Below are positions 20,794 to 55,958 of a stretch of DNA of 58,782 nucleotides, one piece after another. Each line of letters opens with the position of its first letter. Position 1 is the stretch's first letter. The position numbers were made by a program, and so were the translations under genes. The DNA is from a virus, in IMG/VR virus record IMGVR_UViG_3300023181_000033, positions 1 to 58,782 of that record. One strand, given 5' to 3'. The notes below the pieces were generated by a model, which was given only the letters and a program-made list of their open reading frames with translations, did not search any database and was not told where the DNA came from.

Positions 20794-20801
20794 TATATTT
20801 G
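20794..20801 (+). promoter_or_regulatory. -7 element TATATTTG 4 nt before an ATG
   Basis: TATATTTG, then 4 nt, then ATG at 20,806. Part of the recurring near-leaderless pattern. Confidence 0.55.
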
Positions 20802-20805
20802 AACT

Positions 20806-21342
20806 ATGGCAATAGACGCTTCGGCTTATGTGATTTTGATAGACACTGTCACCCCTCGTTCAGCGGGGCATGGCGCTGATTATCGTCCGGTTGCTTGTGG
20901 CACGTCCAATAATTGGGGTGGTGATGCTGAGGGGATATCTTTGCGTAACAAAATGGACGGCGGATATGATCAAAGTACAACAGGGTACATATCTACCAAT
21001 TTTGACATGGACGGGCAGGCAATAGGGTTACGCATGGCAGATAAGCTGATAAAGGCTAACTTTCAGGAACTAGCAGAATTGTTTTATAACAAGCGTGAAT
21101 TCTGGATTATGCAAGCAGATGCGGATATGACTATTGTCCGCGAAATATGGTGCAGAATAGGATCATACAGAGAGACAGCGCAAATGAATAGCCTTTACAC
21201 CTTTACCGCTTCATTCGTGGGTATTGGCCGACCGACAATGCTGACTGGAGATATAATAAAGTTGCTTCGCGCTACTGATTTAAGCGGTACAGAAATAAGA
21301 CAAGACGGAAACAACAATTTAATCGAGATAAAAAATGCCTGA
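20806..21342 (+). CDS. Divergent tail-tube-like paralogue (178 aa)
   Basis: Follows the same motif order as the tube protein at 14,635: YRPVACGTSN, then NKMDGGYDQSTTG, DMDGQAIGLR, ANFQELAELF, REIWCRIGS and a final SFVGIGRPT. Located among tail tip genes, it could be a second tube-fold ring, for example a distal or baseplate ring. Has its own promoter element. The relationship is judged by eye. Confidence 0.55.
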   Translation: MAIDASAYVILIDTVTPRSAGHGADYRPVACGTSNNWGGDAEGISLRNKMDGGYDQSTTGYISTNFDMDGQAIGLRMADKLIKANFQELAELFYNKREFWIMQADADMTIVREIWCRIGSYRETAQMNSLYTFTASFVGIGRPTMLTGDIIKLLRATDLSGTEIRQDGNNNLIEIKNA

Positions 21343-23968
21343 ATTTGAAACAATAACGATACCGGCCCTGCCAGACTTGGTTTTAGCTATAAGCACTTTT
21401 TTAGAAGGGTCGAACGCCGATCAAAAATCGGGCAAGTTTACAGCCGCTCAATTAGCAACCTTTTTAGCACCTTATGTAACAGCCGTGGGTGGCTCGGGCT
21501 ATGTGGCTACTACAGGAACGGTTTTACCTCAGGCAGCTGCAGGAAAGTATACTATTGTCGGCCCCGGTACATATACGCAAACTACAGGCGGGAACGTGGT
21601 TACTACGCAGCCTATAAACATTCTAGCCTCTAACGCAAGCTCGTGGGTATTGGTTACAGCTATCCCTCTTACTCTTACTGATTACGTAAAGAAGTCGGAT
21701 CCCACTTTTAAAGTATATCCAACAAAAGAGGCAGCTATTGCTGACATTGGTAATGTAGTTGTAGACGGAGTAAATAAACGTGACGGCAGGATTATTTTAA
21801 TAGGATCGGCAAACAACTATGTTCCTTATTGGTGGATGAATGGGTTCGAAGACGTGAACTTGGTAGAATTTCAGTCAGCCAGCAATACGGTAACTTTTGC
21901 TAAAGTGCCGGGATACATAGTTCCTAGTGGTGATATTAACTCTGCGCTAGGTTACAACTCAGGATTTGTTGATGTGAATGGAGCGCGTTATATACAGGGG
22001 TCGGTAAACCCTGGGTCTGTAGGATCATCCCTATCAATTGCTTTTTATGATAAAAATAAAATATTTATATCAGGCGTAAATACAGGGGGCATAACACAAT
22101 TAGCCACAGTGCCCACTAACGCTTTTTATGCAAAAATTGGCGGTATAGATATTTCTACTAGTGCTTATGTTATATATCTTTTGGCTACTAGCAAAACTAC
22201 ATCTGCCATTACAGAAAGATTAGATGCACATTTGAATACGTTCGTAGCTAATATCGCCTTTAAAAACGGGTATGTTGATATGTCTGGGTCTATAAATGCC
22301 CTATCATCTGACTGGAAGAACACTGGTTTTTATTACATAAGTGGAGCCAAAAAAATACGCGGCTACATATCAAATAGCCCTAGTATAGGCTCTGGCTACC
22401 CAGTTGCGTTTTACGATAAGAACCGAACTTTTATTTCAGGCGCAAACACGGGGGCTGTATACTATGATTTAGACATTCCAGTAAATGCTTATTATGTGAT
22501 ATTGTCAGGGCTAGCTTCTGGAGTAATTACGCTATCTGTCTTAGATGAGTCTAATCCAAAAGAATATATCAACGAATCAATAGAAAGCCCCGCTAGATAT
22601 TTCAGAGACGACCTAAGAGCTGGGTATTTGAGTGTTAACGGAGATATGGTCAATGTTACGGGGTGGTTCAATACAAATTTCATTTACGTGAAAGGAGAGT
22701 ATAAAATAGAGGCAAAAATAGGCCCGACTTCTCCAGGCGGTGCATTGTCGATAGCGTTCTATGGTAAAGATAAAAAGTTTATATCTGGTGTAAATGCGGG
22801 GACAGAATATGACGAGTCATTAATCCCAACAGCCGCATATTACGCGGCTGTTGGCGGAACTTCAATTTCTTATGTTAAGATCATAGGTAACTCATATAAG
22901 AACTTAGACAAAGACGTTTCAGATTACTTGACTTTTTTGCCTGATAAGTTTGTCTTAATAAAAAACTCAGCCGAAACGATTTATATGCCCGGGCTATATT
23001 CTCAGGGGAATAATTATAAAATAAATAGTGGAATTTTTTCTGATAAAAAAACATTGTATAAAAAGGTAGCTTTATTAGACCACAATGTTGATAATTCTAT
23101 ATTTTTCGCTTTTGACAGATCGCCCTTTGTAGTAGGGGCACCAGTTGAATTTATAGATAAGGCATCGTACAGTTATACTGGCGGGGCTAGGTCTGTAATG
23201 TTTATAGGGGATAGTTTAACCCAATTTGATATATGGCATCAGGAATTTATGCGTCAGCTAACCGGCACGGGCACCCCTGTAAATGGGCAAGTTACAGGGG
23301 TGTTGGCTCCAATGTCGCTGCCTTTAACAGCTATAGGAACCAGAGGTGGATCAGTTTCTGGTGTAAAGCATGAAGGGCGTGCAAGTTGGAGTGTAAATAC
23401 ATATCTTACTCAGTCGTCCGCTTTCGGCAGCAATAACGCTTTCTGGAACCCTTCTACGTCTCAATTTGATATAAACTACTATCTTACTCAAAATAATTTT
23501 TATACATCGTTAGGTGGCACAGTAAATGCTACTGGCGGTAATTTAGACATATTTATATTCTTAGGATGGAATGATCAGGGAATTAAAAAGGCGGAGTTAA
23601 CTACGCTTATCAATCTTATAAAAGCGAAATTGCCCAATGTTAATATTATTCTTGTTGGCCTGCAAACAACCCCCACTAGCGTTCCTAATTATGCTTTCGA
23701 CAGATATAAATCTGTTATGGATATGGTTATTCAAGATAGCATAGATAAACAAAGTGTGGCTAATTCCTTTACAAAGGTTAGCTTTTTCCCTACCGCACCT
23801 TATTTTATACCAGACGGGTCGTATAATGATATAGAAAAACTAGTTACCGTACGAGATTCAGAGCCTACCGTGTATGTAAACGATTGGATACATCCTAAAG
23901 ATAAAGGATTAGGTTTGATTGCCGACTCAAACGTTGCTCAATATCTATCCTATCTGAAGCAATATTAA
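21335..23968 (+). CDS. Tail fibre with repeats and SGNH hydrolase, phage A
   Basis: 877 residues. Three repeats, beginning near residues 205, 308 and 426, share FYDKN.....ISGVN and an Ala-Tyr-Tyr segment, probably carbohydrate-binding or stalk units. The C-terminal domain is an SGNH esterase: MFIGDSLT near 624, FLGWND near 744, DWIHP near 849 (catalytic Asp/His). Likely the receptor-binding, glycan-modifying fibre. Last gene of the tail operon; overlaps the preceding gene by 8 nt. Confidence 0.78.
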   Translation: MPEFETITIPALPDLVLAISTFLEGSNADQKSGKFTAAQLATFLAPYVTAVGGSGYVATTGTVLPQAAAGKYTIVGPGTYTQTTGGNVVTTQPINILASNASSWVLVTAIPLTLTDYVKKSDPTFKVYPTKEAAIADIGNVVVDGVNKRDGRIILIGSANNYVPYWWMNGFEDVNLVEFQSASNTVTFAKVPGYIVPSGDINSALGYNSGFVDVNGARYIQGSVNPGSVGSSLSIAFYDKNKIFISGVNTGGITQLATVPTNAFYAKIGGIDISTSAYVIYLLATSKTTSAITERLDAHLNTFVANIAFKNGYVDMSGSINALSSDWKNTGFYYISGAKKIRGYISNSPSIGSGYPVAFYDKNRTFISGANTGAVYYDLDIPVNAYYVILSGLASGVITLSVLDESNPKEYINESIESPARYFRDDLRAGYLSVNGDMVNVTGWFNTNFIYVKGEYKIEAKIGPTSPGGALSIAFYGKDKKFISGVNAGTEYDESLIPTAAYYAAVGGTSISYVKIIGNSYKNLDKDVSDYLTFLPDKFVLIKNSAETIYMPGLYSQGNNYKINSGIFSDKKTLYKKVALLDHNVDNSIFFAFDRSPFVVGAPVEFIDKASYSYTGGARSVMFIGDSLTQFDIWHQEFMRQLTGTGTPVNGQVTGVLAPMSLPLTAIGTRGGSVSGVKHEGRASWSVNTYLTQSSAFGSNNAFWNPSTSQFDINYYLTQNNFYTSLGGTVNATGGNLDIFIFLGWNDQGIKKAELTTLINLIKAKLPNVNIILVGLQTTPTSVPNYAFDRYKSVMDMVIQDSIDKQSVANSFTKVSFFPTAPYFIPDGSYNDIEKLVTVRDSEPTVYVNDWIHPKDKGLGLIADSNVAQYLSYLKQY

Positions 23969-24127
23969 TAATATTTTTAAAAAGCTATCTTTAACCGGAT
24001 GGCTTTCTACATTTAATAGAAGCACGTTTGTTCCGATTCGCGAATGAACATCTTCCTTTGATTTCGCATATAATGTCTGTTCGAAGACTATATTATTAGC
24101 CATTGCGGTAACTAAGTATTTTTTCAT
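23945..24127 (-). CDS. Small hypothetical protein (60 aa)
   Basis: MKKYLVTAMANNIVFEQTLY. Coupled to the upstream lipoprotein-like gene (ATGA) and overlaps the tail fibre gene's 3' end by 24 nt on the other strand. No domain recognised. Confidence 0.5.
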   Translation of the reverse strand: MKKYLVTAMANNIVFEQTLYAKSKEDVHSRIGTNVLLLNVESHPVKDSFLKILLILLQIG

Positions 24128-24288
24128 GGCTTAGGATGATAAGGGTATCCAACTGAACTATATCCTCCTGCACTTGTTGATGTAGGCTGGTTATCACTCC
24201 ATTCTTGCGCCCTTTCGAGTGCTTTACGGCAACCGTATGCTAAGGATACAACGAATATCCAAGCAAAGATGATGTTTCTATTTTTCAT
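24124..24288 (-). CDS. Small lipoprotein-like protein (54 aa)
   Basis: MKNRNIIFAWIFVVSLAYGC is a lipoprotein signal-like segment with Cys at 20, followed by a short polar, Ser/Tyr/Pro-rich mature part. Probably envelope-associated, possibly lysis- or exclusion-related. Overlaps both neighbours in a four-gene antisense cluster. Confidence 0.55.
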   Translation of the reverse strand: MKNRNIIFAWIFVVSLAYGCRKALERAQEWSDNQPTSTSAGGYSSVGYPYHPKP

Positions 24289-24448
24289 AATTAGATATAT
24301 GTTTAATATTGGTTACTTTAACAGATAGCACTTCATTGTTAGCGAACTGTATAATGAACATACGCTCGTTCATGGGATCTGATGAAATACCTTTGCATAC
24401 CATAGATTTGAAGCCTTTTAAAGGCTCTTTAAATTGCAGCTTAATCAT
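24278..24448 (-). CDS. Small hypothetical protein (56 aa)
   Basis: Start MIKLQFKEPLKGFKSMV overlaps the previous gene's end by 8 nt. A longer in-frame reading lies inside that gene. No domain recognised. Confidence 0.5.
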   Translation of the reverse strand: MIKLQFKEPLKGFKSMVCKGISSDPMNERMFIIQFANNEVLSVKVTNIKHISNYEK

Positions 24449-24629: not shown

Positions 24630-24633
24630 ACAC

Positions 24634-24641
24634 CAAATATA
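24634..24641 (-). promoter_or_regulatory. -7 element for antisense cluster at 24.6 kb
   Basis: CAAATATA on the + strand is TATATTTG on the minus strand, 4 nt before the ATG at 24,629. Confidence 0.55.
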
Positions 24642-24678
24642 AACACACGATCTTGAATTTTTATATAGGTATCTATAA

Positions 24679-24701
24679 TGTTACAATAATTGCTATCTTT
24701 A
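24679..24701 (+). promoter_or_regulatory. Promoter region of the lysis block
   Basis: TGTTACA (24,679-24,685) followed by TATCTTTA (24,694-24,701), about 24 nt before the first small gene of the block. Confidence 0.4.
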
Positions 24702-24725
24702 CGTTACACTTAATTATATAGCATT

Positions 24726-25899: not shown

Positions 25900-25921
25900 A
25901 AATTCCGTCAGATTAAATATA

Positions 25922-25966: not shown

Positions 25967-25982
25967 GTGTTAAATAAATAAG

Positions 25983-26636: not shown

Positions 26637-26658
26637 TGTAAATGAGTTTTATTTAATA

Positions 26659-36474: not shown

Positions 36475-36633
36475 ATGGAAAAAGAAATACTAATAAATCC
36501 GCAAAAGACTTTTACAAAAACCGAGTATCACAAGGTATTTGGTGTCAACCGGGTTAAAATCGATCAACTTATCAAGGATAAGGAATTGAAAACAATCAAC
36601 GTTAAAGGGACTACTTTAATAATCGTTAAATAA
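36475..36633 (+). CDS. Small HTH-like protein (52 aa)
   Basis: TEYHKVFGVNRVKIDQLIKD reads like an excisionase/MerR-type winged-helix start, followed by a strand pair (TINVKGTTLIIVK). Probably a small DNA-binding regulator. It has its own promoter element. Confidence 0.5.
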   Translation: MEKEILINPQKTFTKTEYHKVFGVNRVKIDQLIKDKELKTINVKGTTLIIVK

Positions 36634-40160: not shown

Positions 40161-40491
40161 ACTAAAATTTGAAATACCTAAGCGAATGAAATACCGTAAC
40201 ATCAAGACTGTTATCGATGGGATTACTTTTGATAGCAAAAAAGAGGCTGCATATTACGGCACATTGGTGCTCCTTAAGAAGTCAGGAGAGGTTATTGATT
40301 TTGAGTTGCAACCTAAATACTACTTAGCTATTAATGGTGTTAAGTGTGGATTTTACAAGGCAGATTTTAAAGTAACATGGAAGTCAGGTGTAGTAAGGGT
40401 AGTTGACGTAAAAGGTATGAAAACGCCTATATACAACCTAAAAAAGAAACTTGTTAAAGCTATACATGGCATAGATATAATTGAAGTATAG
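40153..40491 (+). CDS. DUF1064 nuclease-like protein (112 aa)
   Basis: MKYRNIKTVIDG, FDSKKEAAYYGTLVLLKKSG, FELQPKYYL, YKADFKVTW and VVDVKGMKTPIYNLKKKL follow the DUF1064 pattern, a PD-(D/E)XK-like fold with ExK replaced by D-V-K. Predicted phage DNA-processing nuclease, possibly a junction resolvase. Confidence 0.82.
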   Translation: MSELKFEIPKRMKYRNIKTVIDGITFDSKKEAAYYGTLVLLKKSGEVIDFELQPKYYLAINGVKCGFYKADFKVTWKSGVVRVVDVKGMKTPIYNLKKKLVKAIHGIDIIEV

Positions 40492-40525
40492 CGTTAATGT
40501 TACAAATACGTATTATATTTCATTT

Positions 40526-40795: not shown

Positions 40796-40842
40796 CTTCG
40801 CAACATCTCTGTTACAAACTTGCCGATGACAGGTAAGAGTGG

Positions 40843-40850
40843 TAAGTTTG
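40843..40850 (+). promoter_or_regulatory. -7 element TAAGTTTG 3 nt before an ATG
   Basis: TAAGTTTG, 3 nt, ATG 40,854. TGTTACA lies upstream at 40,810-40,816. Confidence 0.45.
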
Positions 40851-41911: not shown

Positions 41912-42025
41912 ATGAACAAAAAAAAAATAAAGCAGGCAGCAAAAGAGTTTTGCGAGGCTGAGGGAGTATCTTTCTTCCAACATGTAGAAGCTAATGAAGG
42001 AAGAACTTATTATAAGCAGGGCTAA
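41912..42025 (+). CDS. 37-aa peptide spanning the A/B junction
   Basis: MNKKKIKQAAKEFCEAEG and onward, reading across the whole 99-bp repeat, then TAA immediately after it. The identical codons at 1-99 continue for 141 more residues. This is either a short natural phage B gene or a truncation made at the junction. Confidence 0.5.
   Translation: MNKKKIKQAAKEFCEAEGVSFFQHVEANEGRTYYKQG
41924..42022. repeat. 99-bp direct repeat, copy 2
   Basis: Exact copy of 1-99. Left of it lies the end of phage A, right of it the start of phage B. Confidence 0.97.
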
Positions 42026-42422: not shown

Positions 42423-42430
42423 TATATTTG
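42423..42430 (+). promoter_or_regulatory. -7 element before phage B terS
   Basis: TATATTTG, 5 nt before ATG 42,436. Confidence 0.55.
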
Positions 42431-42435: not shown

Positions 42436-42867
42436 ATGGATTTAGGACGACCAACAAAATACAGCGATAAATATCCTAAGCAGGCTTATAAGTTATGTTT
42501 GTTAGGTGCTACAGACCAGGAATTAGCTGATTTTTTCGAAATAAACGTTGATACAGTTCAAGAATGGAAGAAAGTTCACGAAGAATTTTCCGATTCCATA
42601 AAAAGGGGTAAGAAACAAGCAGACAGCGAAGTAGCGCATAAGCTTTTTAAAAGAGCTACCGGCTATGAACATCCAGAAGTCGATATTAAAATGTATGAGG
42701 GTCAAATCATAAAAACTGACCTTATAAAACATTACGCGCCTGACACAACTGCAGCTATATTTTGGCTTAAAAACAGGCAATCTAAACAGTGGAGAGATAA
42801 ACAGGAAATTGACCACTCATCTACTGACGGCACCATGTCACCTAAAACGACTATCAAATTCGAGTAA
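42436..42867 (+). CDS. terS: Terminase small subunit, phage B
   Basis: 143 residues. MDLGRPTKYSDKYPKQAYKL, an HTH (TDQELADFFEINVDTVQEWK), RATGYEHPEV and PDTTAAIFWLKNR are standard for the terminase small subunit family that pairs with PBSX-type large subunits. Unrelated to terS of phage A. The stop abuts the terL ATG. Confidence 0.9.
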   Translation: MDLGRPTKYSDKYPKQAYKLCLLGATDQELADFFEINVDTVQEWKKVHEEFSDSIKRGKKQADSEVAHKLFKRATGYEHPEVDIKMYEGQIIKTDLIKHYAPDTTAAIFWLKNRQSKQWRDKQEIDHSSTDGTMSPKTTIKFE

Positions 42868-44193
42868 ATGGACGAACTGATATTATCCAAGAAATACGCG
42901 CCACTTTTTAAGTGGCTTTCTTGTTTAGATACCGATGAGTTAGCTAAGGTCGATACTGTTGTTTGTACTGGGGGCAGGTATAGCCAGAAGTCATTCGCAG
43001 TAGGCACATGGTCGTGCATAGCGGCTAAAGACTTTGTGCATAGGATATTATACACCCGTTACACACTGGTTTCCGCTTCTGATTCAATCATTCCTGAGTT
43101 TTCAGAAAAAATAGATATTCTTGGTGTTCATGAAGATTTTACGGTTACTCGGGATCGTATTGTAGGTAATTTTAATGCCAGTAAGATTGTGTTTAAAGGT
43201 ATCAAAACCGGATCGGGTAATCAAACTGCTAACCTGAAATCATTAAAAGGGTTCTCAGTATTCATAGTTGAAGAAGCTGAAGAATTGCCTTCATTTGATC
43301 AATGGGATAAGATTAAAAAGTCAATTAGGGCGTTAGATGTGCGTAATCTATCCATACTCATACTTAACCCTGCCGTAAAAACCCACTGGATATATGAAGA
43401 ATTGTTTGAGGATAGGGGTGTGCAAGAAGGTTTTAATGGGATTAAAGATAATGTTTTATACATACATACAGATTACAGGGATTTAAAGCGCGAATTTATA
43501 CCCGATTCTATTTACCTTGACTTTGAAGACAAACGCATAGCCTATGAGCTGTATATGGCTACTGATAAGGATAAACGCGAATATCTGGACAAGAAGATCA
43601 TTAAAAAGGCTAATTACTATATTCACGTAATTGCAGGCGGATGGCTAGAAAATGCTGAAGGGGTAGTATTTGACAATTGGTCTATTGGCGCGTTTGATGA
43701 CAGTTTACCTTATGCATTTGGCCAAGACTACGGCTACTCGGCTGATCCTACGACACTTGTTAAGGTCGCTGTTAGCATTAAGCACAAGAAAATATACGTT
43801 AAGGGCTGCTTTGGTAAAGCCGGCATGTCTACCAATGATATTTATTTGGCCAACCTATTCCATTGCGGGTTAAACAGCGAGATCATAGGCGATAGTGCAG
43901 AGCCAAGGTTGATATCTGAGTTAAGCAAGCGTGAACTTAAAATAAAGGGCGCAATTAAAGGCCCAGGGTCCGTAACTGCCTCGATAAAAGACATGCAAGG
44001 CTACGAGATAATAGTAGACCCGGGTAATGAAAGCATCCCGATAATCAAAGAGCTGAACAATTACGTGTGGTCAGACAAGAAAGCGGGTGTGCCTGTAGAT
44101 TTGTGGAATCACTATATAGATCCAATCAGATATGTAGCATGGCCAATAATTAAAGCTCCCAAAAAAGAAAGAACAGTAATGCAATCAAGCTAA
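42868..44193 (+). CDS. terL: Terminase large subunit, phage B (PBSX/Terminase_3-like)
   Basis: 441 residues. Walker A-like VVCTGGRYSQKSFAV at about 32-46 is atypical (Gln-Lys-Ser instead of Gly-Lys-Ser/Thr). Walker B is FIVEEAEEL near residue 132. C-terminal nuclease features are KIYVKGCFGKAG, GDSAEPRLISEL and YVWSDKKAG. Packages DNA. A different terminase type from phage A. Confidence 0.9.
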   Translation: MDELILSKKYAPLFKWLSCLDTDELAKVDTVVCTGGRYSQKSFAVGTWSCIAAKDFVHRILYTRYTLVSASDSIIPEFSEKIDILGVHEDFTVTRDRIVGNFNASKIVFKGIKTGSGNQTANLKSLKGFSVFIVEEAEELPSFDQWDKIKKSIRALDVRNLSILILNPAVKTHWIYEELFEDRGVQEGFNGIKDNVLYIHTDYRDLKREFIPDSIYLDFEDKRIAYELYMATDKDKREYLDKKIIKKANYYIHVIAGGWLENAEGVVFDNWSIGAFDDSLPYAFGQDYGYSADPTTLVKVAVSIKHKKIYVKGCFGKAGMSTNDIYLANLFHCGLNSEIIGDSAEPRLISELSKRELKIKGAIKGPGSVTASIKDMQGYEIIVDPGNESIPIIKELNNYVWSDKKAGVPVDLWNHYIDPIRYVAWPIIKAPKKERTVMQSS

Positions 44194-44225
44194 ATTCATA
44201 TATTGCAAATACATAGCGATAATGT

Positions 44226-44233
44226 TACATTTG
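44226..44233 (+). promoter_or_regulatory. -7 element before phage B portal
   Basis: TACATTTG, 4 nt before ATG 44,238, overlapping TGTTACA (44,223-44,229). Confidence 0.55.
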
Positions 44234-44237
44234 TAGT

Positions 44238-45617
44238 ATGCAGATAAAGGAAGGGCTGAAAGTAATGTTCGGCAAATCAGTTGATACCATTAGTAAGGCC
44301 TATCCCAATTTAGGCGCGGCACTACCGTTAGTATTTGGCAACACGTTCAGATGGTCACTCAATGGCATGTCGGCCTATAACAATAAGATATTCTACTCAG
44401 CACAAAACATTCTTGTTAATAAGCTAACTGAAGCACCTATTATGTTTTCTAAACGTAAAAAAGGTGGTGAACAGAAGCTAAGAAAGTATTATTCTAAGGC
44501 GATATCTAACGAAGACAGGCAAAGAATAAAGGCTCAATCATTAGATGAGCAAGAAAATCACCCCTTAAATGCGTTATTTGATTCTCCAAATGAGTACCAG
44601 TCAGGTATTGAAATGATGGAAGATTTCTGGTTCAACTATGGTTATGGAGATGGATTTCTGTATTTCGAGTCGTTAGGCGATGAATCTTCCAGGAATAAGC
44701 AGCCTATTGCCGTACATTCATTAAGGCGCGACAGGTTAGAAGTTGTTCAGTCTAATCTAGCCTTTGATGGCATTGCTAAATATATCTATTCAGGGCTTAA
44801 CGGCACTCAGATAGAAATACCAAAAGACCGAGTATTACACCTAAAGCACTGGAATCCTAATATAGGCGAATTAAAAGGCCTAGGGGTTGATCAAATTGCT
44901 TCTATGGATATTTCACTGAACAATGCTAATAACGCCATGCAAGGGGCTGCATTTAAGAACGGAGGGCGGGGCACGATGTTCAGTTCTGACATACTTGTTG
45001 GTACTGATGGTGAAGTGACAGAGAAGATGACGGCAACACAAATGGATGCGTTAAAATCAACCATTAAATCTGACTACGCTGGTATAGAGAATTATAAAAA
45101 ACTACATTTCACTAACGGCTACGTTAAAGCCGAGACATTTGGCGACACGATGGTGGAAACCGATGCTATAAATGCCGAAGATTCACATTGGAAGAATATA
45201 TATACTATTTGCGGCGTACCATTCGTTTTATCCCCTGCCGCATCATCTGTAAGTGAAAATTCAATCATTGCCGGGTACAAGTCGCTAGTGACAAATACCA
45301 TAGTTTCTATCCTTCGCAAATTTGATCAGAAGTTAACTCAAAGGGTATTTCAATGGTGGCCTGATATTATTGCTTGTCACGATTTAACGGAGTTTACAGA
45401 ACTTGCACCGGATTTAAAACTGATGCGTGAAATATACGGACAGCCTACGTTAGATGAAGATGAGCGCAGGGCAATATTCGGGTTTGATGAAATGCGTGAC
45501 GGATTAGGTAAGAATTATTTGATAGCTTCAGGTTTAATGAAATTCGAAGATTTGATCAATGACGAATTTGCCGACACGCCCAATGCTAACGATCCCGACG
45601 CACCTCAAAAACTGTAG
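44238..45617 (+). CDS. Portal protein, phage B (HK97 family)
   Basis: 459 residues, homologous to phage A 3,082-4,446 along its length (ALHLKHWNPNIGELKGLG-type core, ELAPDLKLMREI, ANDPDAPQKL end). The N-terminus is more divergent than the rest. Its conservation despite unrelated terminases shows the module boundary. Confidence 0.93.
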   Translation: MQIKEGLKVMFGKSVDTISKAYPNLGAALPLVFGNTFRWSLNGMSAYNNKIFYSAQNILVNKLTEAPIMFSKRKKGGEQKLRKYYSKAISNEDRQRIKAQSLDEQENHPLNALFDSPNEYQSGIEMMEDFWFNYGYGDGFLYFESLGDESSRNKQPIAVHSLRRDRLEVVQSNLAFDGIAKYIYSGLNGTQIEIPKDRVLHLKHWNPNIGELKGLGVDQIASMDISLNNANNAMQGAAFKNGGRGTMFSSDILVGTDGEVTEKMTATQMDALKSTIKSDYAGIENYKKLHFTNGYVKAETFGDTMVETDAINAEDSHWKNIYTICGVPFVLSPAASSVSENSIIAGYKSLVTNTIVSILRKFDQKLTQRVFQWWPDIIACHDLTEFTELAPDLKLMREIYGQPTLDEDERRAIFGFDEMRDGLGKNYLIASGLMKFEDLINDEFADTPNANDPDAPQKL

Positions 45618-45619
45618 AT

Positions 45620-45778
45620 ATGGCAAAACTTGAATATACCCTTATTGCTGACGTGTCGTTAATCATGAAAGCATACAAGCGCGGGTTTGAAGACGCTTTT
45701 CTGCTGATGAATGATAGTGCCGATTTAGACGAAACGTTAAACATTAACAATATTTCAACAGAAGAAGATGCTGAATGA
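45620..45778 (+). CDS. Small conserved protein between portal and MuF (52 aa)
   Basis: MAKLEYTLIADVSLIMKAYK, ending in NNISTEEDAE. Overlaps MuF by 11 nt. This is the intact form of the frameshifted phage A locus at 4,449-4,611. Confidence 0.65.
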   Translation: MAKLEYTLIADVSLIMKAYKRGFEDAFLLMNDSADLDETLNINNISTEEDAE

Positions 45779-46604
45779 ATTCAAGCAAGAACGGCTAGAG
45801 TTTGCCAGGTTCCACAAGAACGCTGAGAAACAGATGTTGCCTATTGTTCGGAGAGCGTTAAACAAACAAGTTGAAAATGTGATAGCGTGGGTTGAAAACA
45901 ACGGAGTTGAGAACGTTCCTGTTGAAATGCTTATAGATCGCTCTGTATGGCGTAATATGTATCCTCAATTGTATGAGCAATTCGGCATGAGTATGGCTAG
46001 ACTAGAATACTACAGGCAACGAAGTTTAGACGGAGGCGCAACTAAAGCGAGTGCAATCGATTTCCTAAAGTCAGTGTGGAGCGGTAAACTTAGGCGCGCA
46101 GCAATAGAATACATAACCGGCATTGAAGACTTACTCAATCAAACAACTATAGAGAATGTCAGACGCGCTTTGACCAATGGTTACGAGATAGGGTTAGACC
46201 GATTAGGCCGCATAAGGATATTCAACAGAGAAATATTTGACATCAACAAAGGTAGAGGACTGACTATATCGAGAACAGAAACCAGCACAATTGCGAACCT
46301 AGGCAAAGAAATAGCCGCTAAATCTTGGATTGAACAGCAGGGAAATGGTGAAGGGTATAAAGTTTGGTTAGGCAGGATTAAAGGCGAACGCGAAACGCAT
46401 TTAGAAACGAATGACACTATCATACCGATGGGAGATAAATATTCTCTTAGAGGTGATCTATGCGACAGGCCGGGAGATGTAAATTTAACACCGTCTAACA
46501 GAATTTCTTGCCGATGCACTCAAAGTTTAATGGGTGAGGCAAGATATCAGCAATATGTCAAACGTGGTAGAATTGTTAATGGCAAGCTTTCTGGAGCTAG
46601 TTAA
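45768..46604 (+). CDS. MuF-like minor head protein, phage B
   Basis: 278 residues, near-identical to phage A 4,811-5,647, with a small variable patch near the C-terminus (GDVNLTPSNRISCRCTQ here). Assembles with the portal inside the prohead. Confidence 0.88.
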   Translation: MLNEFKQERLEFARFHKNAEKQMLPIVRRALNKQVENVIAWVENNGVENVPVEMLIDRSVWRNMYPQLYEQFGMSMARLEYYRQRSLDGGATKASAIDFLKSVWSGKLRRAAIEYITGIEDLLNQTTIENVRRALTNGYEIGLDRLGRIRIFNREIFDINKGRGLTISRTETSTIANLGKEIAAKSWIEQQGNGEGYKVWLGRIKGERETHLETNDTIIPMGDKYSLRGDLCDRPGDVNLTPSNRISCRCTQSLMGEARYQQYVKRGRIVNGKLSGAS

Positions 46605-46654
46605 TTATTTATTTGCTATTTCGGATTATTATGTATATTTGCTATTGTAACAAA
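46605..46654 (+). promoter_or_regulatory. 50-bp promoter block shared with phage A
   Basis: Identical to 5,779-5,828, with TATATTTG at 46,634-46,641 and TGTAACA at 46,646-46,652. Begins right after the MuF stop and drives the protease-capsid genes. Confidence 0.7.
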
Positions 46655-46664
46655 ATATTTACAA

Positions 46665-47327
46665 ATGCTCATAAAAGGGATTGCACAAGGGTTTAAGGAC
46701 GTAGATACCAAGCAAGGTATTGTTACTGGATATTTCGCGCATTTTGGATCTAAAGATTCAGATGGGGATATTATAGTTAGGGGGGCATTTTCTAAATCCA
46801 TACAGGAAAACGGGCCAAAATCCAGAAATCCACGTATTAAGCATTTGTTAGACCACAAGCGGGATAAAGCAATTGGGTTGCTGACTGATTTGTATGAGGA
46901 TGAGGTAGGCTTAGGATACGAATCTAAAGCCGGCCGTCATGCTGATGGTAGGGACTTCTTGTTAATGGTAGAAGACGGTATCATTACCGAACACTCACAC
47001 GGATTCCAGATCATCAAAGAGCAGCAAAAATCTGATGCTAATTACATTCAGGAATCCAGGCTTTACGAGGGTAGTTCTCTCCAATTTTGGGGGGCTAACG
47101 GGAACACTCCTATTACAGGTGTAAAGTCTGCTGCCGATATGATTGACGACCTTAATACCCTTGAAAGAGGTTTAAAAAACGGAAAATACACAGACGAAAC
47201 ATTTAAACGTTTGGAAGAAAGAATTAAATCACTCTATAACCTTTTGAAGCCGGATTCTGCCACTTCAAATGATGATGAGCCGACGGATAGCAAATCACCT
47301 TATTTATCATTTATCACAAAATCATGA
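46665..47327 (+). CDS. HK97-family prohead protease, phage B
   Basis: 220 residues. IVTGYFAHFGSKDSDGDIIV, the GAFSKSI segment, KHLLDHKRDKAIG (catalytic His) and IITEHSHGF (catalytic Ser in the S-H-G-F strand) match PF04586. Cleaves the capsid delta domain. Overlaps the capsid gene by 4 nt. A replacement of the divergent protein at this site in phage A. Confidence 0.9.
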   Translation: MLIKGIAQGFKDVDTKQGIVTGYFAHFGSKDSDGDIIVRGAFSKSIQENGPKSRNPRIKHLLDHKRDKAIGLLTDLYEDEVGLGYESKAGRHADGRDFLLMVEDGIITEHSHGFQIIKEQQKSDANYIQESRLYEGSSLQFWGANGNTPITGVKSAADMIDDLNTLERGLKNGKYTDETFKRLEERIKSLYNLLKPDSATSNDDEPTDSKSPYLSFITKS

Positions 47328-48613
47328 CAAAAGAAGAAATTGAATTGGCAGAAAAGAACATTAAGGACTTAGCCACCGATACCGCACAAAGGTATGTTGC
47401 GGATAACATTAAATCATTCCTTAAAGCTGAGGTAGGCTCTGACGAGGCTAAATCGCTGATAAAAGGAATTGCTGAGGAAGCAATGAAATCCATGAAAGTA
47501 AAAGACTTTGATGGTCAGGAAAAAGCATTAGACTTCATCTTTGAAGAAATGCAGAAGCAACACGACAGCCTAGCTAAAGTGGTTAAAGGCTTGAAAGACG
47601 GTGATGCTACAACTGTTAAATCGTTTGAAACAGAACTGAAAGAGCAATTAGGCGCACAAAAAGACGGCTTATTGAAGCTGAAAGAGACAGGGGAAGGTAA
47701 AGTAAACATTACCATGAAGGCCGCGGCAACGATGACTATTGCTACCAACTACACAGGCGGTACGGTAGGATTGACAAGCTTTGATAGCCAGTTTGCACGT
47801 GTACAACGTCGTCAGCCATTCATGCGTGAATTGGTTCGTGTGTTGACCACTGATAACATGTATATTGCTTGGGCTGAGATGGCAAATCCAGATCCGGGTG
47901 TTGCCGGGACTGTTGCTGAGGGTGCGGTTAAACCTCAAACAGATTTCGACATTGTAGAGCGTACTGCGAAAGTTGAAAAAATTGCAGTTTGGATTAAAGT
48001 ATCTAAAGAAGCATTGGCAGATATTAAATTCTTGCAAGCTGAGATTAATACTGAACTTCGTGAATTGGTTGACTTGAAACTGGACGAGCAAATCTTATCT
48101 GGTGACGGTGTATCACCAAACCTTAGAGGTATTTTACCTGTAGTGCCTACATTTGCGGCTATTTCTACGCTTGCATTGTTGGTGCCTACTCCAAACAGGT
48201 TTGACGTAATTATGGCTGCTGTAGCTCAAATTGCTGCTGCTAACTTTACAGCTGATACGGTTGTTTTAAACCCTGCTGATTACTACGCTATGCAATTAGT
48301 TAAAGATGGCGAGGGACGTTATTTAATGCCTCCATTCTCAACTGTTGACGGTATGAATATCGCTGGCTTGCGTGTTGTAGCTAACAATGGTGTTACTGCA
48401 GGAACGTTCTTGGTAGGTGACTTCAAAAAAGCATCACTTGCTATCCGTGAGGATGTGAACATTCAAGTAGGTTATGTTAATGACGACTTTACCCGTAACT
48501 TAGTGACTATTCTAGCTGAGATGCGAGCAGTATTGTACATTAAAACTAACTGGTTGAATGCCTTCGTGAAAGGCACGTTTAGTGTGGCTATAGCCTCGCT
48601 AACTAAACCGTAA
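47324..48613 (+). CDS. Major capsid protein, phage B (HK97 fold)
   Basis: 429 residues. The N-terminal ~100-residue helical delta domain (KVKDFDGQEKALDFIFEEMQ) is recognisably related to phage A's. The shell domain carries AEMANPDPGVAGTVAEGA and KDGEGRYLMPPF. Followed by a perfect 10-bp terminator. Confidence 0.92.
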   Translation: MTKEEIELAEKNIKDLATDTAQRYVADNIKSFLKAEVGSDEAKSLIKGIAEEAMKSMKVKDFDGQEKALDFIFEEMQKQHDSLAKVVKGLKDGDATTVKSFETELKEQLGAQKDGLLKLKETGEGKVNITMKAAATMTIATNYTGGTVGLTSFDSQFARVQRRQPFMRELVRVLTTDNMYIAWAEMANPDPGVAGTVAEGAVKPQTDFDIVERTAKVEKIAVWIKVSKEALADIKFLQAEINTELRELVDLKLDEQILSGDGVSPNLRGILPVVPTFAAISTLALLVPTPNRFDVIMAAVAQIAAANFTADTVVLNPADYYAMQLVKDGEGRYLMPPFSTVDGMNIAGLRVVANNGVTAGTFLVGDFKKASLAIREDVNIQVGYVNDDFTRNLVTILAEMRAVLYIKTNWLNAFVKGTFSVAIASLTKP

Positions 48614-48633
48614 GCATTAAAAAATTCTATAAG

Positions 48634-48669
48634 AAGTGCCCTGGGTATTTAGTTATTCAGGGCACTTTT
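48634..48669 (+). terminator. Terminator after phage B capsid gene
   Basis: A 10-bp stem AAGTGCCCTG/CAGGGCACTT (48,634-48,643 with 48,658-48,667) followed by T. Confidence 0.85.
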
Positions 48670-48685: not shown

Positions 48686-49417
48686 ATGATAGGAATATAT
48701 AAAATAACAAATCCAGAGGGTAAAATTTACGTAGGTCAAAGTAAAGACATTGAAAAAAGGAAACATGATTACAGGTTGTTAAGGAATAAAAATCAAATAA
48801 AAATACATAGATCAATAGTTAAGTACGGGTGGGAAAACCATAAGTTCGAAATAATAACAGAATGTGACCAATGTGAATTAAACGACCTAGAGGAGTTTTA
48901 CATAAAAGAACTAAAAGCTATTAGTAGAGTAAAGGGGCTAAATCTTAAAACTGGAGGTAAAAATTCAGTCCTTAGCCCAGAAGCTTTAAATAAAATGGCA
49001 AAAACAATGAAGAATAAACATAAGTATGATGCTGATTTTAGAGAAAGGTTTTTAAAAATGTGCAGAGATAGGTCGGAAAAGATTAAAGGCGTGCCGAGAC
49101 CTAAAGAGGTGATAGATAAAATAAGAAATACAAAAGCAAAAACGGGCACGCTTACAATGAAAAAAAGTTCAATAGAAAAAATGGCAGAGACACAAAGAAG
49201 AAAATTTAATGAAGACCCTAGTATGAGATCGCGAATGATAGATATCAATAAATTGTCAAGTGGCAATGTAAAACCTGTTCGCTGTATTCTTACTGACAAA
49301 ACGTGGGGTTCATGCAAGCAAATGTGCGAAGAAATGGGTCTAAACTTAAGATATACAAGGAAGCAGCTTAATGGTTCTAGAACTAATTTCACTACATACG
49401 AGTATACAAGAAAATAG
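48686..49417 (+). CDS. GIY-YIG homing endonuclease, phage B
   Basis: 243 residues. The catalytic domain holds MIGIYKITNPEGKIYVGQS, an Arg in the KRKHDYRL helix and a Glu in NDLEEFYIKEL. C-terminal repeats (IEKMAETQRRKFNEDPS) and LTDKTWGSCKQMCEEMGLN resemble NUMOD DNA-binding motifs. The gene is free-standing with its own promoter and terminator, inserted between capsid and the next head gene. Phage A lacks it. Confidence 0.88.
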   Translation: MIGIYKITNPEGKIYVGQSKDIEKRKHDYRLLRNKNQIKIHRSIVKYGWENHKFEIITECDQCELNDLEEFYIKELKAISRVKGLNLKTGGKNSVLSPEALNKMAKTMKNKHKYDADFRERFLKMCRDRSEKIKGVPRPKEVIDKIRNTKAKTGTLTMKKSSIEKMAETQRRKFNEDPSMRSRMIDINKLSSGNVKPVRCILTDKTWGSCKQMCEEMGLNLRYTRKQLNGSRTNFTTYEYTRK

Positions 49418-49449: not shown

Positions 49450-49486
49450 ATTAGCTATATTTGATTGTAACAAACATATTACGATC

Positions 49487-52260: not shown

Positions 52261-52271
52261 ATAAAACTAAC

Positions 52272-52820
52272 ATGGAACCAGTAACCTTACAAGAGATAAA
52301 AGCTTTCCTACGCATTGACGCTGACTATGTTGCTGAGGATAGTTTCCTGGAACTTACTGCGGGTGCAGCAAGGCAGATTATGCAGGATGAATTGAACATA
52401 GGACTTGTGCCGATGGAATTAGAGTTTCAATGGAACGGCCGTAAGCAAGAATTACCGTTAAGCCCTACTATTACTATTGTCAGCGTGAAAGATAGCGAAG
52501 GAGCAGATGTAGAATATGCTACAGACGGTTACCAAGCTAAATCTGTATGGGTGAATTGGAACGGTAATTCTGAAGGGCAATGGTTTTACTCTATATCTGG
52601 AGGTTATGCTGAATACACGCCATTTGGCCGTGTAGGAGACGAACCGTTGTACAAGTGCATCTATCAAACTGGCTATGAAGTATTACCTCAGACGCTTAAA
52701 TTAGCTTTGTTAGCACAAATTGACCACATGTATAAGTTACGTGGACAGCCAGAGGGGTCAATGGTTAGTCAGACCGCCTTAAACATGGCAAGTCGGTACT
52801 CTAGGAATTTGGTGATATGA
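52272..52820 (+). CDS. Head-tail connector, gp6-like, phage B
   Basis: 182 residues, near-identical to phage A 10,790-11,338 (only scattered substitutions). Same ATGA coupling to the next gene. Confidence 0.85.
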   Translation: MEPVTLQEIKAFLRIDADYVAEDSFLELTAGAARQIMQDELNIGLVPMELEFQWNGRKQELPLSPTITIVSVKDSEGADVEYATDGYQAKSVWVNWNGNSEGQWFYSISGGYAEYTPFGRVGDEPLYKCIYQTGYEVLPQTLKLALLAQIDHMYKLRGQPEGSMVSQTALNMASRYSRNLVI

Positions 52821-53167
52821 AAAAAAAGCTAATCACGTCTGGCGATTTAAACCAAAGTATTGAGATATATAAGCAGTCACTTGTCGAAGATGGCAGCGGT
52901 GGCACTTACCCCTTAGACGTCCTATATTGGGCTACTTCAGCTATGACAGATCAGATTAGGGCAGGTAGGACATTGCAGGCTTTACAGGATATACTAACAC
53001 CGGCAGTAACGTTTACAGTGCGCTATAGGCAAGATAAGTTTATAACGCCTGATATGCGTATTAAATGGAGAGGGCAATATTTTACAGTTATTACCGCTGA
53101 GGTGGATTTCGTAGCGAAGGAATGGCTGGTTATTATTGGTAGGGCTGAAGCTTTGCCGGAGAGGTAA
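52817..53167 (+). CDS. Head-tail joining protein, phage B
   Basis: 116 residues, same length and pattern as phage A 11,335-11,685 (RYRQDKFITPDMRIKWRGQY). Followed by a hairpin with AGCCCAC/GTGGGCT. Confidence 0.85.
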   Translation: MKKKLITSGDLNQSIEIYKQSLVEDGSGGTYPLDVLYWATSAMTDQIRAGRTLQALQDILTPAVTFTVRYRQDKFITPDMRIKWRGQYFTVITAEVDFVAKEWLVIIGRAEALPER

Positions 53168-53170
53168 TAA

Positions 53171-53201
53171 AAAAGCCCACCTGAACTTAATCGGGTGGGC
53201 T
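53171..53201. terminator. Hairpin between connector and antisense cargo, phage B
   Basis: AGCCCAC (53,174-53,180) pairs with GTGGGCT (53,195-53,201). The A-run on the left serves as a T-run for minus-strand transcripts. The same place in phage A has a different stem. Confidence 0.7.
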
Positions 53202-53237
53202 AATAATCCCGACTGAACTATCAGGAAACAGGCAGAA

Positions 53238-53606
53238 TTAATGAAATTCTAATCTTTGTTTTTTCTCTAATGCCAACTTGCAACCATCAATAAATGTTTG
53301 AGTTTTCTCTGCGTAATTACCGATATGCCCGCCGCCATCTTCTTTTTCTAGAAAAGGCAATATTTTAGTTAAAGCATCAATAATACCAGGTAATTTTGAC
53401 CTATTAATATAGCCATCGCAATCAGAATGATAAAGCAAAGGTGTTAATGGATGTTTTGTATCAAACTTTATAGCGTTTTTATCATCAGTAAAACCTTCCA
53501 TTTTATTTAAATCAGGTAATCCTGAGACTTCTGCAATTTTCATTCTCCACCTCATGAATGCGCTATAAGCCCCGTGCCAAGCATTGTGTGAAATATCTAA
53601 TCCCAT
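53238..53606 (-). CDS. Antisense cargo protein (122 aa), phage B
   Basis: MGLDISHNAWHGAYSAFMRW; His/Asp/Gly-rich, with FHSDCDGYI-like segment (YHSDCDGYINRSKLPGI) and a closing polar helix. Reminds me of small conserved phage proteins of unknown function. Occupies the same antisense slot as the Imm-5-like gene in phage A but is unrelated. Confidence 0.65.
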   Translation of the reverse strand: MGLDISHNAWHGAYSAFMRWRMKIAEVSGLPDLNKMEGFTDDKNAIKFDTKHPLTPLLYHSDCDGYINRSKLPGIIDALTKILPFLEKEDGGGHIGNYAEKTQTFIDGCKLALEKKQRLEFH

Positions 53607-53642
53607 TTTGATAGTTTTTTATATAGCTGAATTGCTACGATA

Positions 53643-53683
53643 CAAATGTAACTACTAATCCTTATATTTGAATGTAACAAGTT
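53643..53683. promoter_or_regulatory. 41-bp divergent promoter shared with phage A
   Basis: Identical to 12,399-12,439. + strand box TATATTTG at 53,663-53,670, minus-strand box at 53,643-53,650, TGTAACA at 53,673-53,679. Confidence 0.65.
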
Positions 53684-53690
53684 AGGTACA

Positions 53691-54200
53691 ATGGCAAAAG
53701 TATTTAGGAATTTCGGGGACATGTCTGCTGCACTTAAAAAGGTTACTGAGGATTTTGCTAAGGAGGCGCGGGGCTTGGTTGAATATAACCTTGGAGAACT
53801 TGAGTTGCAAGCAATACGCGACGCTCCGGCATCAGGTGACCCTATAGCCACAGAGTACGGTAATGAATCTCAGGAAGATATAGCAAGAGGTAGGGCGTGG
53901 ACTCCAATAAACCAGGCAATAGGATATGCACTTGATGTGCCAAGTAAGGGGCTTAAAGGAACCGTATACGTTGATAAATCTGCAGGCAACATTGTGGCAT
54001 TTGTGGAATTTGGGACTGGTCAATCAGCAGCATACTATGTAAACACGCTCCCTCCAGAGTTTCAGGCTACCGCGCGCAAATTTTTCGTGAATGGCAAGGG
54101 CAAGATACTCGCAAAACCATTTTTACTTCCTGCATTTTTTAAATACAGCGTCCAATTCAAAAAAGAAATGGCTGAGGCCGTTAAAAACATATCATTCTGA
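53691..54200 (+). CDS. HK97 gp10-like tail protein, phage B
   Basis: 169 residues, homologous throughout to phage A 12,448-12,957; the middle (GNIVAFVEFGTGQSAAYYV) is most variable. One-base overlap with the next gene. Confidence 0.8.
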   Translation: MAKVFRNFGDMSAALKKVTEDFAKEARGLVEYNLGELELQAIRDAPASGDPIATEYGNESQEDIARGRAWTPINQAIGYALDVPSKGLKGTVYVDKSAGNIVAFVEFGTGQSAAYYVNTLPPEFQATARKFFVNGKGKILAKPFLLPAFFKYSVQFKKEMAEAVKNISF

Positions 54201-54670
54201 TGAAAAGCACAACATTGCCAATCCGCAAAGCCTTCTACCAAGTCATTAACACTGACCTGAAATACCAAAACGTAACTATTCCGGTATACGAGGAATATAT
54301 TCCGGCCGCTGCTAAGCCTGCAGTATTGATTTTCAACAATCAAACGGTAAAGGCTTATGTCATCTTGCTAAACCAGACGAGTAACTTTGATCCGGTTTTG
54401 AAGTGCGTTAGAAATGACCAATCGTCCATACAGGTACAAGTAACTACTCAATTTCCATCTGGAACGGGCGGTTCTGAGCTGGCTGAATTGATAGGGGACT
54501 TGATTAAGGCTAAGATATTCCCAACGGCAAATACGAACGCTCTACAATTAGATCCGGCATTCAAACTTTGGAAATGTAGCTATGAATCGGGGCGTAACAT
54601 CCCATATGACACTGAAACTAACCGAGTATGGGTGCATCAAATGACATTTCTTTGCTATGTTGCGCAGTGA
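54200..54670 (+). CDS. Tail completion/terminator-like protein, phage B
   Basis: 156 residues with few differences from phage A 12,957-13,427. Role inferred from gene order. Confidence 0.65.
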   Translation: MKSTTLPIRKAFYQVINTDLKYQNVTIPVYEEYIPAAAKPAVLIFNNQTVKAYVILLNQTSNFDPVLKCVRNDQSSIQVQVTTQFPSGTGGSELAELIGDLIKAKIFPTANTNALQLDPAFKLWKCSYESGRNIPYDTETNRVWVHQMTFLCYVAQ

Positions 54671-54809
54671 TTTAGAAGCTCAGGCAGAGGTTTTATATCC
54701 AATGCCCGAGCGGTGTTGTGATTGGAAGCGCAAAAAGATTATTTGGCTTCGGATGAAGTGGGTTGAGAAACAGCAGACTATACTTTATAAATCAACTTCG
54801 AATAATTGA
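54657..54809 (+). CDS. Small Cys/Trp/Lys-rich protein (50 aa), phage B
   Basis: First ~38 residues equal phage A 13,414-13,587, with a different tail (QQTILYKSTSNN). Overlaps the preceding gene by 14 nt and an antisense gene by 32 nt. Confidence 0.5.
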   Translation: MLRSDLEAQAEVLYPMPERCCDWKRKKIIWLRMKWVEKQQTILYKSTSNN

Positions 54810-54990
54810 TTTTCTTACCCAATACAATATAAGAATTAAACCAACCCGTAAAAGGAAGCACAAAATATAATATACCATAACCTTTAATTGTCCATTTTTT
54901 TCTATCTGTTTCGCCATTAGCATCATAAGAAGCATAAACCCTTATGAATAAAAATTGAACTATATAATTCACGCAACCTAGTAATGTCAT
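54778..54990 (-). CDS. Small membrane protein cargo (70 aa), phage B
   Basis: MTLLGCVNYIVQFLFIRVYA and GILYFVLPFTGWFNSYIVLG give two hydrophobic segments. ATGA overlap with the coiled-coil gene. Phage A has an unrelated acidic protein here. Confidence 0.6.
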   Translation of the reverse strand: MTLLGCVNYIVQFLFIRVYASYDANGETDRKKWTIKGYGILYFVLPFTGWFNSYIVLGKKINYSKLIYKV

Positions 54991-55166
54991 TGTTGTTCAC
55001 CTCCTTCCTCACTCAACTTTGCCAGTCTTTCTTGCCTCCTATTCGGTAAAGGCTTAGCATCGCTTGACGACTGTTCATTTCGTTCAGTCCTTACCAATTT
55101 GCTTATCTTTTGCTCTAAAACCTGAACGCGTTGTTCTAGGGAGCTGATTTGTTCTTTTTGTGTCAT
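54987..55166 (-). CDS. Small coiled-coil protein (59 aa), phage B
   Basis: MTQKEQISSLEQRVQVLEQK, the same as phage A 13,771-13,953 apart from the last residues. Overlaps both neighbours with ATGA junctions. Confidence 0.6.
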   Translation of the reverse strand: MTQKEQISSLEQRVQVLEQKISKLVRTERNEQSSSDAKPLPNRRQERLAKLSEEGGEQQ

Positions 55167-55456
55167 ATAGAAATATTCAATAGTCTAATAATTGTAAAAT
55201 AATCATCTTCAGTTAATTCTGGATTTAAAGTAAAAAATGAACGCTCCGGGGTTTCGTTTATCCAGTGCAATTCTGAAATGCTAAAGGATCCGTACAAGCC
55301 TATTGAGCAAACTAAACTTGAATTCTTTATATGTTTAAAAGTTTCATATAAAGGTTTTTCTTCTTCTAAGACCCAGCCTTTAGAAAGTAGGAATTTTCTG
55401 TTAATCTTTATTTTCTCTTGAGCTTGTATGCTAAATGGTGTTGTTGGGGTTTTCAT
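55163..55456 (-). CDS. Hypothetical cargo protein (97 aa), phage B only
   Basis: MKTPTTPFSIQAQEKIKINR, then LSKGWVLEEEKPLYETFKHI, ending in DYFTIIRLLNISI. Inserted between the conserved coiled-coil and zinc-finger genes; phage A has nothing here. Confidence 0.6.
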   Translation of the reverse strand: MKTPTTPFSIQAQEKIKINRKFLLSKGWVLEEEKPLYETFKHIKNSSLVCSIGLYGSFSISELHWINETPERSFFTLNPELTEDDYFTIIRLLNISI

Positions 55457-55458
55457 AT

Positions 55459-55704
55459 CTATTCTTCTTCTAATTTATGTATTCCAGGAATATGCACGTA
55501 ATTAATCGGCTTCATCTTCTGGTCGTGTTTCATTGTTTTGCCTTTGTTTTGGTGACCATTGTGAAATTTAGTGCAATGCGGGCACTTATAACTAACCATC
55601 CGTTTCTTTTTACACCCCTTGTTGATATTGGCTACAGATGAATTTGCCTGTTCTGCTGTATCATAGGATATCTTGCCTAAGCATGCGTTTTCGGTTCGGA
55701 TCAT
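55459..55704 (-). CDS. Small zinc-finger protein (81 aa), phage B
   Basis: YKCPHCTKFHNGHQNKG offers CxxC and His ligands. Otherwise matches phage A 13,956-14,201 closely. Confidence 0.7.
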   Translation of the reverse strand: MIRTENACLGKISYDTAEQANSSVANINKGCKKKRMVSYKCPHCTKFHNGHQNKGKTMKHDQKMKPINYVHIPGIHKLEEE

Positions 55705-55707
55705 AGG

Positions 55708-55947
55708 CTAATCATCTATTTTAAGTGTAAATTTTTGTACATACCAAGATTCATACGCCCCAAATTTAGGTTTCCAGCCTTTCTTGTCGTCATAAATCCT
55801 ATCAAATTCTTTTTTTTCTTTTGCTTTATGAGCGTTCATAGCTTCGGTAGCCCCTTTTTTAGTTCTGTGGTAAGAAACGATGTAAGATGCTGACTCATAA
55901 TGCATAGGGTTATAATAGAACGCCCATAATTTAATTTCCTTTTCCAT
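55708..55947 (-). CDS. Hypothetical cargo protein (79 aa), phage B
   Basis: Start MEKEIKLWAFYYNPMHYESA. A minus-strand TATATTTG lies 3 nt before this ATG, which favours it over one ten codons upstream. Lys/Tyr/Trp-rich. First gene of the antisense cluster. Confidence 0.6.
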   Translation of the reverse strand: MEKEIKLWAFYYNPMHYESASYIVSYHRTKKGATEAMNAHKAKEKKEFDRIYDDKKGWKPKFGAYESWYVQKFTLKIDD

Positions 55948-55950
55948 ACC

Positions 55951-55958
55951 CAAATATA
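55951..55958 (-). promoter_or_regulatory. -7 element of antisense cluster, phage B
   Basis: CAAATATA on + equals TATATTTG on minus, 3 nt before ATG 55,947. Confidence 0.55.

Follow-up and report, generated by a model that had tools for sequence, protein, structure and literature searches.

The 58,782-nucleotide viral record IMGVR_UViG_3300023181_000033, analysed at its full length and called the window here, carries eleven TAnnTTTG boxes placed 3–5 nucleotides (nt) before an ATG on both strands. We think it likely (probability about 0.86) that these boxes are -7 elements of promoters used by the Bacteroidota primary sigma factor, that transcription would start at the A of the ATG and give truly leaderless mRNAs, and that the arrangement characterises a single lineage of tailed phages of ~40 kb. 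The promoters would serve mainly the heads of transcription units, namely those of portal, terminase small subunit (terS), tail and endolysin genes and of small genes that are often divergent. A dyad, GTAAC-N6-GTTAC, recurs at fixed distances from the boxes and may be the operator of one regulator, with activation from about -42.5 and repression from about -17.5 or the start site. Bacteroidota, abundant bacteria of gut, soil and sea, do without Shine-Dalgarno pairing.

Spacing of the boxes in the window and in related phages

The window begins with a complete-looking phage of ~41.9 kb (phage A), to which 16.8 kb of the left arm of a relative (phage B) is joined. The eleven boxes had been reported in a first-pass annotation, and all of them, with their ATGs, are present; seven lie in A and four in B. 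The gap to the ATG is 4 nt in seven cases, 3 nt in two and 5 nt in two. One further box, before the phage A portal, was absent from that set and closes the list.

20794..20801, plus strand: TATATTTG box, 4 nt to ATG 20806; tail-tube-like protein of 178 amino acids (aa), phage A
24634..24641, minus strand: TATATTTG box, 4 nt to ATG 24629; 62-aa protein, phage A
26725..26732, plus strand: TATCTTTG box, 4 nt to ATG 26737; endolysin, phage A
30223..30230, minus strand: TATATTTG box, 4 nt to ATG 30218; 49-aa protein with a weak CopG/RHH match, phage A
36463..36470, plus strand: TAAATTTG box, 4 nt to ATG 36475; 52-aa protein, phage A
40526..40533, plus strand: TATATTTG box, 4 nt to ATG 40538; 85-aa lipoprotein-like protein
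40843..40850, plus strand: TAAGTTTG box, 3 nt to ATG 40854; 95-aa protein, in-frame GTG at 40839
42423..42430, plus strand: TATATTTG box, 5 nt to ATG 42436; terminase small subunit, phage B
44226..44233, plus strand: TACATTTG box, 4 nt to ATG 44238; portal, phage B
48673..48680, plus strand: TATATTTG box, 5 nt to ATG 48686; GIY-YIG homing endonuclease, phage B
55951..55958, minus strand: TATATTTG box, 3 nt to ATG 55947; 79-aa protein, in-frame ATG upstream at 55977
3070..3077, plus strand: TACTTTTA box, 4 nt to ATG 3082; phage A portal

For the window, every ATG opening an open reading frame (ORF) of at least 40 aa was taken (n = 484), and each 60-nt upstream region was shuffled with dinucleotides kept (300 trials). 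A box at 3–5 nt precedes 11 of the 484 ATGs, against a mean of 1.0 and a largest value of 5 in the shuffles. The motif total is only mildly raised (97 copies versus 72 ± 9), so it is the placement and not the abundance that is unusual. Box–ATG gaps are bimodal, with one peak at 3–5 nt, almost none at 6–12 nt and a second peak at roughly 15–26 nt.

Portal and large terminase (TerL) scans of viral contigs yielded dozens of relatives, sixteen of which (634 kb) were read at length, with gaps of 45–74 nt serving as background (about 4 boxes per position). Gaps of 3, 4 and 5 nt occurred 36, 43 and 9 times, 88 in total versus 12 expected; gaps of 6–12 nt numbered 16 versus 28 expected, and gaps of 15–26 nt numbered 88 versus 48 expected. 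The reversed motif gave no spacing peak. Shuffled sequence and related phages were the two comparisons that the first-pass annotation had proposed, and the spacing holds up in both. The second, equally common class comprises ordinary leadered promoters with a leader of 10–20 nt.

The 99 boxes from relatives and window together are spread over 69 protein clusters and hence do not represent one inherited sequence. At single genes the placement can be kept: among 33 portal homologues with distinct upstream regions (36–98% identity), 30 retain TAnnTTT[GA] 3–5 nt before the ATG, several with the box G replaced by A as at the phage A portal, and all 14 portals that were aligned have the same first methionine. 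The box is likewise retained before six of 21 homologues of the 20806 gene, before an endolysin homologue at 57% identity, before a homologue of the minus-strand 24629 gene in G005 at 50% identity, and before terS (the 42423 box) in G001. The 52-aa protein at 36475 has no Pfam or PHROGs match; it clusters with similar small boxed proteins of G001, G008 and G016, and a tblastn test showed no boxed homologue.

Signs of leaderless transcripts

ORFs opened by ATG 3–5 nt after a box number 99 versus 13.7 expected, with no such enrichment for GTG (3 versus 4.5), TTG (6 versus 10.1), CTG (3 versus 5.2), ATT or AAG. A pyrimidine directly precedes the ATG in 76% of cases at a gap of 3 nt, 96% at 4 nt and 82% at 5 nt, as expected before the A of a start site. 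In leadered promoters of the same phages, A is enriched 12–13 bases from the box T, a zone shared with the leaderless ATGs. The Kozak-like A at -3 is found in 73% of leadered genes versus 37% of leaderless ones (p = 1e-5), as if the bases 5' of the ATG were untranscribed; promoter bases occupying the same positions could account for part of the difference, which would make the same point from the DNA side. Given the restriction to ATG, the pyrimidine before its A and the loss of A at -3, we infer that the most likely start is the A of AUG, and translation would then proceed without a leader.

Upstream, TTG stands 22–23 bases before the box T at 22 of 93 leaderless boxes versus 36 of 683 other boxes, an element that is enriched and not universal. 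Box and TTG near -33 together fit primary sigma promoters, in keeping with the first-pass identification of TAnnTTTG as the Bacteroidota -7 element, and the TTG also agrees with its proposal that transcription would begin at or near the start codon. That the boxes mark operon heads, as had been suggested too, accords with an upstream spacer whose median is 54 nt for leaderless genes versus 2 nt for all genes; 46 of 98 leaderless genes are divergent from their neighbour.

The coding side carries a signature of its own. Over loci L066–L099 and the window, 36 of 95 leaderless genes versus 124 of 1046 other genes begin with AUG-GA (p = 9e-10), and the second residue is Glu (GAA or GAG) in 33% of leaderless genes versus 9% of others, a bias that may reflect early translation or initial transcription. 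Folding of the first 40 nt of leaderless genes was not significantly lower (p = 0.13).

Hosts and other phages

The 3–5 nt spacing did not rise clearly above background in chromosome samples of Dyadobacter (400 kb), Chryseobacterium (200 kb) and Pedobacter (151 kb), in prophage loci related by TerL, or in four reference phages, namely Cellulophaga phi18:1, Flavobacterium 11b and FCL-2, and Bacteroides B40-8. The sequence TAYATTTGNNNNATG occurs 34 times in the 634 kb of phage DNA (54 per Mb; reversed control 0) versus no more than about 6 per Mb in any of 118 Bacteroidota genomes. Leaderless and leadered counts stand at 88:88 in the phages versus 14:68 in the chromosomes (p = 3e-7). A portal-profile search of genomes for the host gave no match. 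The TerL search turned up prophages alone, in Dyadobacter, Chryseobacterium, Sphingobacterium and Pedobacter among others, all of them more distant and without the trait. The first-pass description of this transcription as widespread does not stand as worded; what stands is a lineage-specific class of about 7–10% of genes.

A dyad in fixed register with the boxes

GTAAC-N6-GTTAC occurs in the relatives as 20 exact copies at spacer 6, with 0–2 at other spacers; allowing one mismatch, 112 copies were counted versus about 25. Chromosomes, prophage kin and reference phages contain it no more often than background, and 148 Bacteroidota genomes show no enrichment either. The dyad is specific to this phage lineage, and its reading as a host site is rejected on the count in those genomes. 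No earlier description of the 16-base site was found.

Registers were scored as the first base of the dyad relative to the box, over 142 leaderless boxes ending in TTTG or TTTA. The preferred positions are -38 or -39 (31 of 142), -13 (19), -43 (8) and -48 (5), so that about 44% of leaderless boxes have a dyad in a fixed register versus 0.07% per random position; leadered promoters also carry it, at +11. Placing the start 12 bases downstream of the box T would put the centre of the -38 class near -42.5, where activators typically bind, and that of the -13 class near -17.5; there the dyad overlaps the box, as repressor sites typically do. From position only, we hypothesise that a single regulator plays both roles. 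In the window the sites are as follows.

24669..24684, minus strand: dyad (plus-strand letters GTATC-TATAAT-GTTAC), register -43 of the 24641 box
40488..40503, plus strand: dyad ATAGC-GTTAAT-GTTAC, register -38 of the 40526 box, activator-like
40800..40815, plus strand: dyad GCAAC-ATCTCT-GTTAC, register -43 of the 40843 box
44213..44228, plus strand: dyad ATAGC-GATAAT-GTTAC, overlapping the phage B portal box, register -13, repressor-like
55981..55996, minus strand: dyad (minus-strand letters GTAAC-AACAAT-AGTAC), register -38 of the 55958 box
46634..46662, plus strand: leadered promoter with TATATTTG, gap 23 to ATG 46665 (protease), dyad at the start site, register +13
49456..49482, plus strand: leadered promoter with TATATTTG, gap 23 to ATG 49487, dyad at +11
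53663..53689, plus strand: leadered promoter with TATATTTG, gap 20 to ATG 53691 (neck protein), dyad at +11

The 53663 box is also present in phage A, at a gap of 21 before 12448. At both neck promoters (12419–12448 and 53663–53691) the box is followed one base later by a minimal ATG-TAA, which overlaps a GTAAC half-site, and the neck-protein ATG lies 20–21 nt after the box; the arrangement is found in A and B alike. In another relative (G013, L093), the divergent leaderless genes at 6260 (minus strand) and 6318 (plus strand) share one dyad, a candidate two-way switch.

Taken further, these positions allow a tentative picture that we hold to be possible yet somewhat less probable than its opposite: a genome-wide switch in which one phage-encoded regulator on the dyad would activate leaderless genes from -42.5 and silence the portal promoter and those of other structural genes from -17.5 or the start site, sometimes with one dyad serving two divergent genes, while mRNAs beginning AUG-GAA or AUG-GAG may have their own translation route in hosts without Shine-Dalgarno pairing.

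Comparison with known systems

The -7 element is the same as in Bacteroidota primary sigma (sigma-ABfr) promoters, which combine a -33 TTTG with a -7 TAnnTTTG (PMC6847099, PMC9723704, PMC7366714); the distance to the predicted start is also the same, and a weak TTG near -33 is found in both. In the three bacteria mapped most leaders exceed 10 nt and 3.7–5.5% of mRNAs are leaderless or nearly so: 3.7% of 5' untranslated regions are shorter than 10 nt in B. thetaiotaomicron (PMC7366714), 5.5% of transcripts are leaderless in F. psychrophilum (PMC9723704), and leaders are longer than 10 nt in 87% of cases in F. johnsoniae (PMC6847099). Here, in contrast, the 3–5 nt class at least equals the 15–26 nt class in size.

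Leaderless genes in another bacterial phylum likewise have a box directly before the ORF; that system uses a different sigma factor and box and is a feature of bacterial genomes, whereas the layout described here characterises a phage lineage and does not stand out in the Bacteroidota chromosomes that were sampled. The leaderless cI mRNA of phage lambda starts at the AUG from PRM, a promoter flanked by activating and repressing operators. The likeness lies in a phage mRNA that starts at the AUG and in operator positions suited to activation and repression. The lambda case concerns one gene; here many operon heads are involved, structural genes included, and no integrase (PF00589) was found in any of 17 records, with serine recombinases not searched. 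An integrase with a CI-like repressor, as in a temperate-phage repressor system, did not emerge from the searches for PF00589 and for a shared HTH_3 protein.

The HcpR2 operator GTAACnnnnGTTAC of the CRP/FNR family (PMC1274295) has the same half-sites, GTAAC and GTTAC. Its spacer is 4, in contrast to 6 here, and at spacer 4 the phages have no exact copy and a one-mismatch count at background; HcpR2 sites precede hcp, whereas here there are many sites per 40 kb of phage. An HcpR2 or other CRP/FNR site is ruled out on the spacer.

Leaderless mRNAs as such are a known kind. The literature searched yielded no account of leaderless promoters in phages of Bacteroidota, of their weight at operon heads or of their coupling to a lineage-specific dyad. 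As a main class at operon heads, including that of the portal, they suggest that skipping the leader pays during infection. They supply testable sequence rules (3–5 nt from box to AUG, pyrimidine at -1, Glu as second codon, dyad registers), and the dyad provides a defined operator for finding the phage regulator. In phages of this kind the promoter can also serve to settle which start codon is used.

Alternative explanations

Chance in AT-rich DNA deserves next to no weight. The window does hold 97 copies from which eleven could be picked, and the pattern was chosen after looking, but the local shuffles, the excess in independent relatives and the flat profile of the reversed motif speak against it, and the relatives already refute it. 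It is very improbable, too, that the box acts in translation, as a signal within a leader RNA. It sits where ribosome signals lie, in a phylum lacking Shine-Dalgarno pairing; yet the TTG near -33 and the dyads at fixed offsets are promoter features at the DNA level, the same box also stands 15–26 nt upstream of other genes, and A at -3 is lost rather than kept. A host trait, by which the phages would follow a host whose genes are commonly leaderless, we regard as unlikely. Only prophages of TerL kin point towards hosts, which leaves room for it, but the chromosome samples show no clear peak, TAYATTTGNNNNATG is several-fold rarer in the bacterial genomes, and the published leaderless shares are small. 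About as unlikely is that the promoters are real and the start lies a few bases off, so that the boxed ATG would not be the true start and a short leader or a later ATG would be used. In favour are in-frame alternative starts at three of the eleven genes and the A enrichment of leadered promoters, which peaks at position 13 (5 nt after the box) while most leaderless ATGs stand at 3–4 nt. A shifted start would not be expected to leave ATG as the only enriched codon, the first methionine of the portals invariant, the pyrimidine–A step in place at all three gaps alike, and the A at -3 lost.

Several observations weigh against primary-sigma promoters that start on the A of AUG, the reading we prefer. 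A 3-nt gap is one shorter than the 4–5 nt common between -7 element and mapped start sites in F. johnsoniae (PMC6847099). In some boxes the third or fourth base is G, a base avoided there by the F. johnsoniae element (PMC6847099). Three of the eleven starts are less certain because of in-frame upstream alternatives: minus-strand 55947 (ATG 55977), 40854 (GTG 40839) and 48686 (TTG 48668). Minus-strand 30218 and 40854 had no homologues in the tblastn comparison. The host comparison covers three chromosome samples and 118 genomes of Bacteroidota, which may not include the phages' own host. Finally, searches for KilA-N, HTH_3 and shared families did not find the dyad regulator: KilA-N was present in the window only, no HTH_3 protein is common to the phages, and no non-structural protein family is common to all those bearing the dyad.

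Composition of the window

PHROGs searches placed two packaging and head modules (terS, terL, portal, head) in the window, at 986–8132 and 42436–48613. The ends of phage A are marked by a repeat.

1..99, plus strand: 99-base end repeat, identical to 41924–42022
41924..42022, plus strand: second copy of bases 1–99; end of phage A and start of the left arm of relative B

Compared with stretches of the first arm, the second shows 74–92% identity, with a few short stretches closer to identical, and a single relative of 40,271 bases (G001) is a mosaic whose left arm matches B and whose remainder matches A. Two modules, the repeat, the arm identity and this mosaic establish the window as phage A plus part of B. 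Most likely the assembly joined the two where they share sequence; a natural tandem is the less likely alternative.

A 77-kb record (G009; loci L025 and L027) also carries two portal genes on one contig, which means that double-phage contigs recur in this phage group. The terminase pairs of the two arms differ, phrog_51/979 (986–3038) versus phrog_309/2 (42436–44193), while the left arms are otherwise homologous; this is module swapping, seen among relatives too. In phage B, the GIY-YIG homing endonuclease gene at 48686 is inserted after the capsid gene, and its leaderless promoter adjoins a terminator-like hairpin.

48632..48669, plus strand: intrinsic-terminator-like hairpin, directly 5' of the 48673 box

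Several overlapping self-matches at 11805–12051 form a tandem repeat inside the minus-strand ORF 11743–12375.

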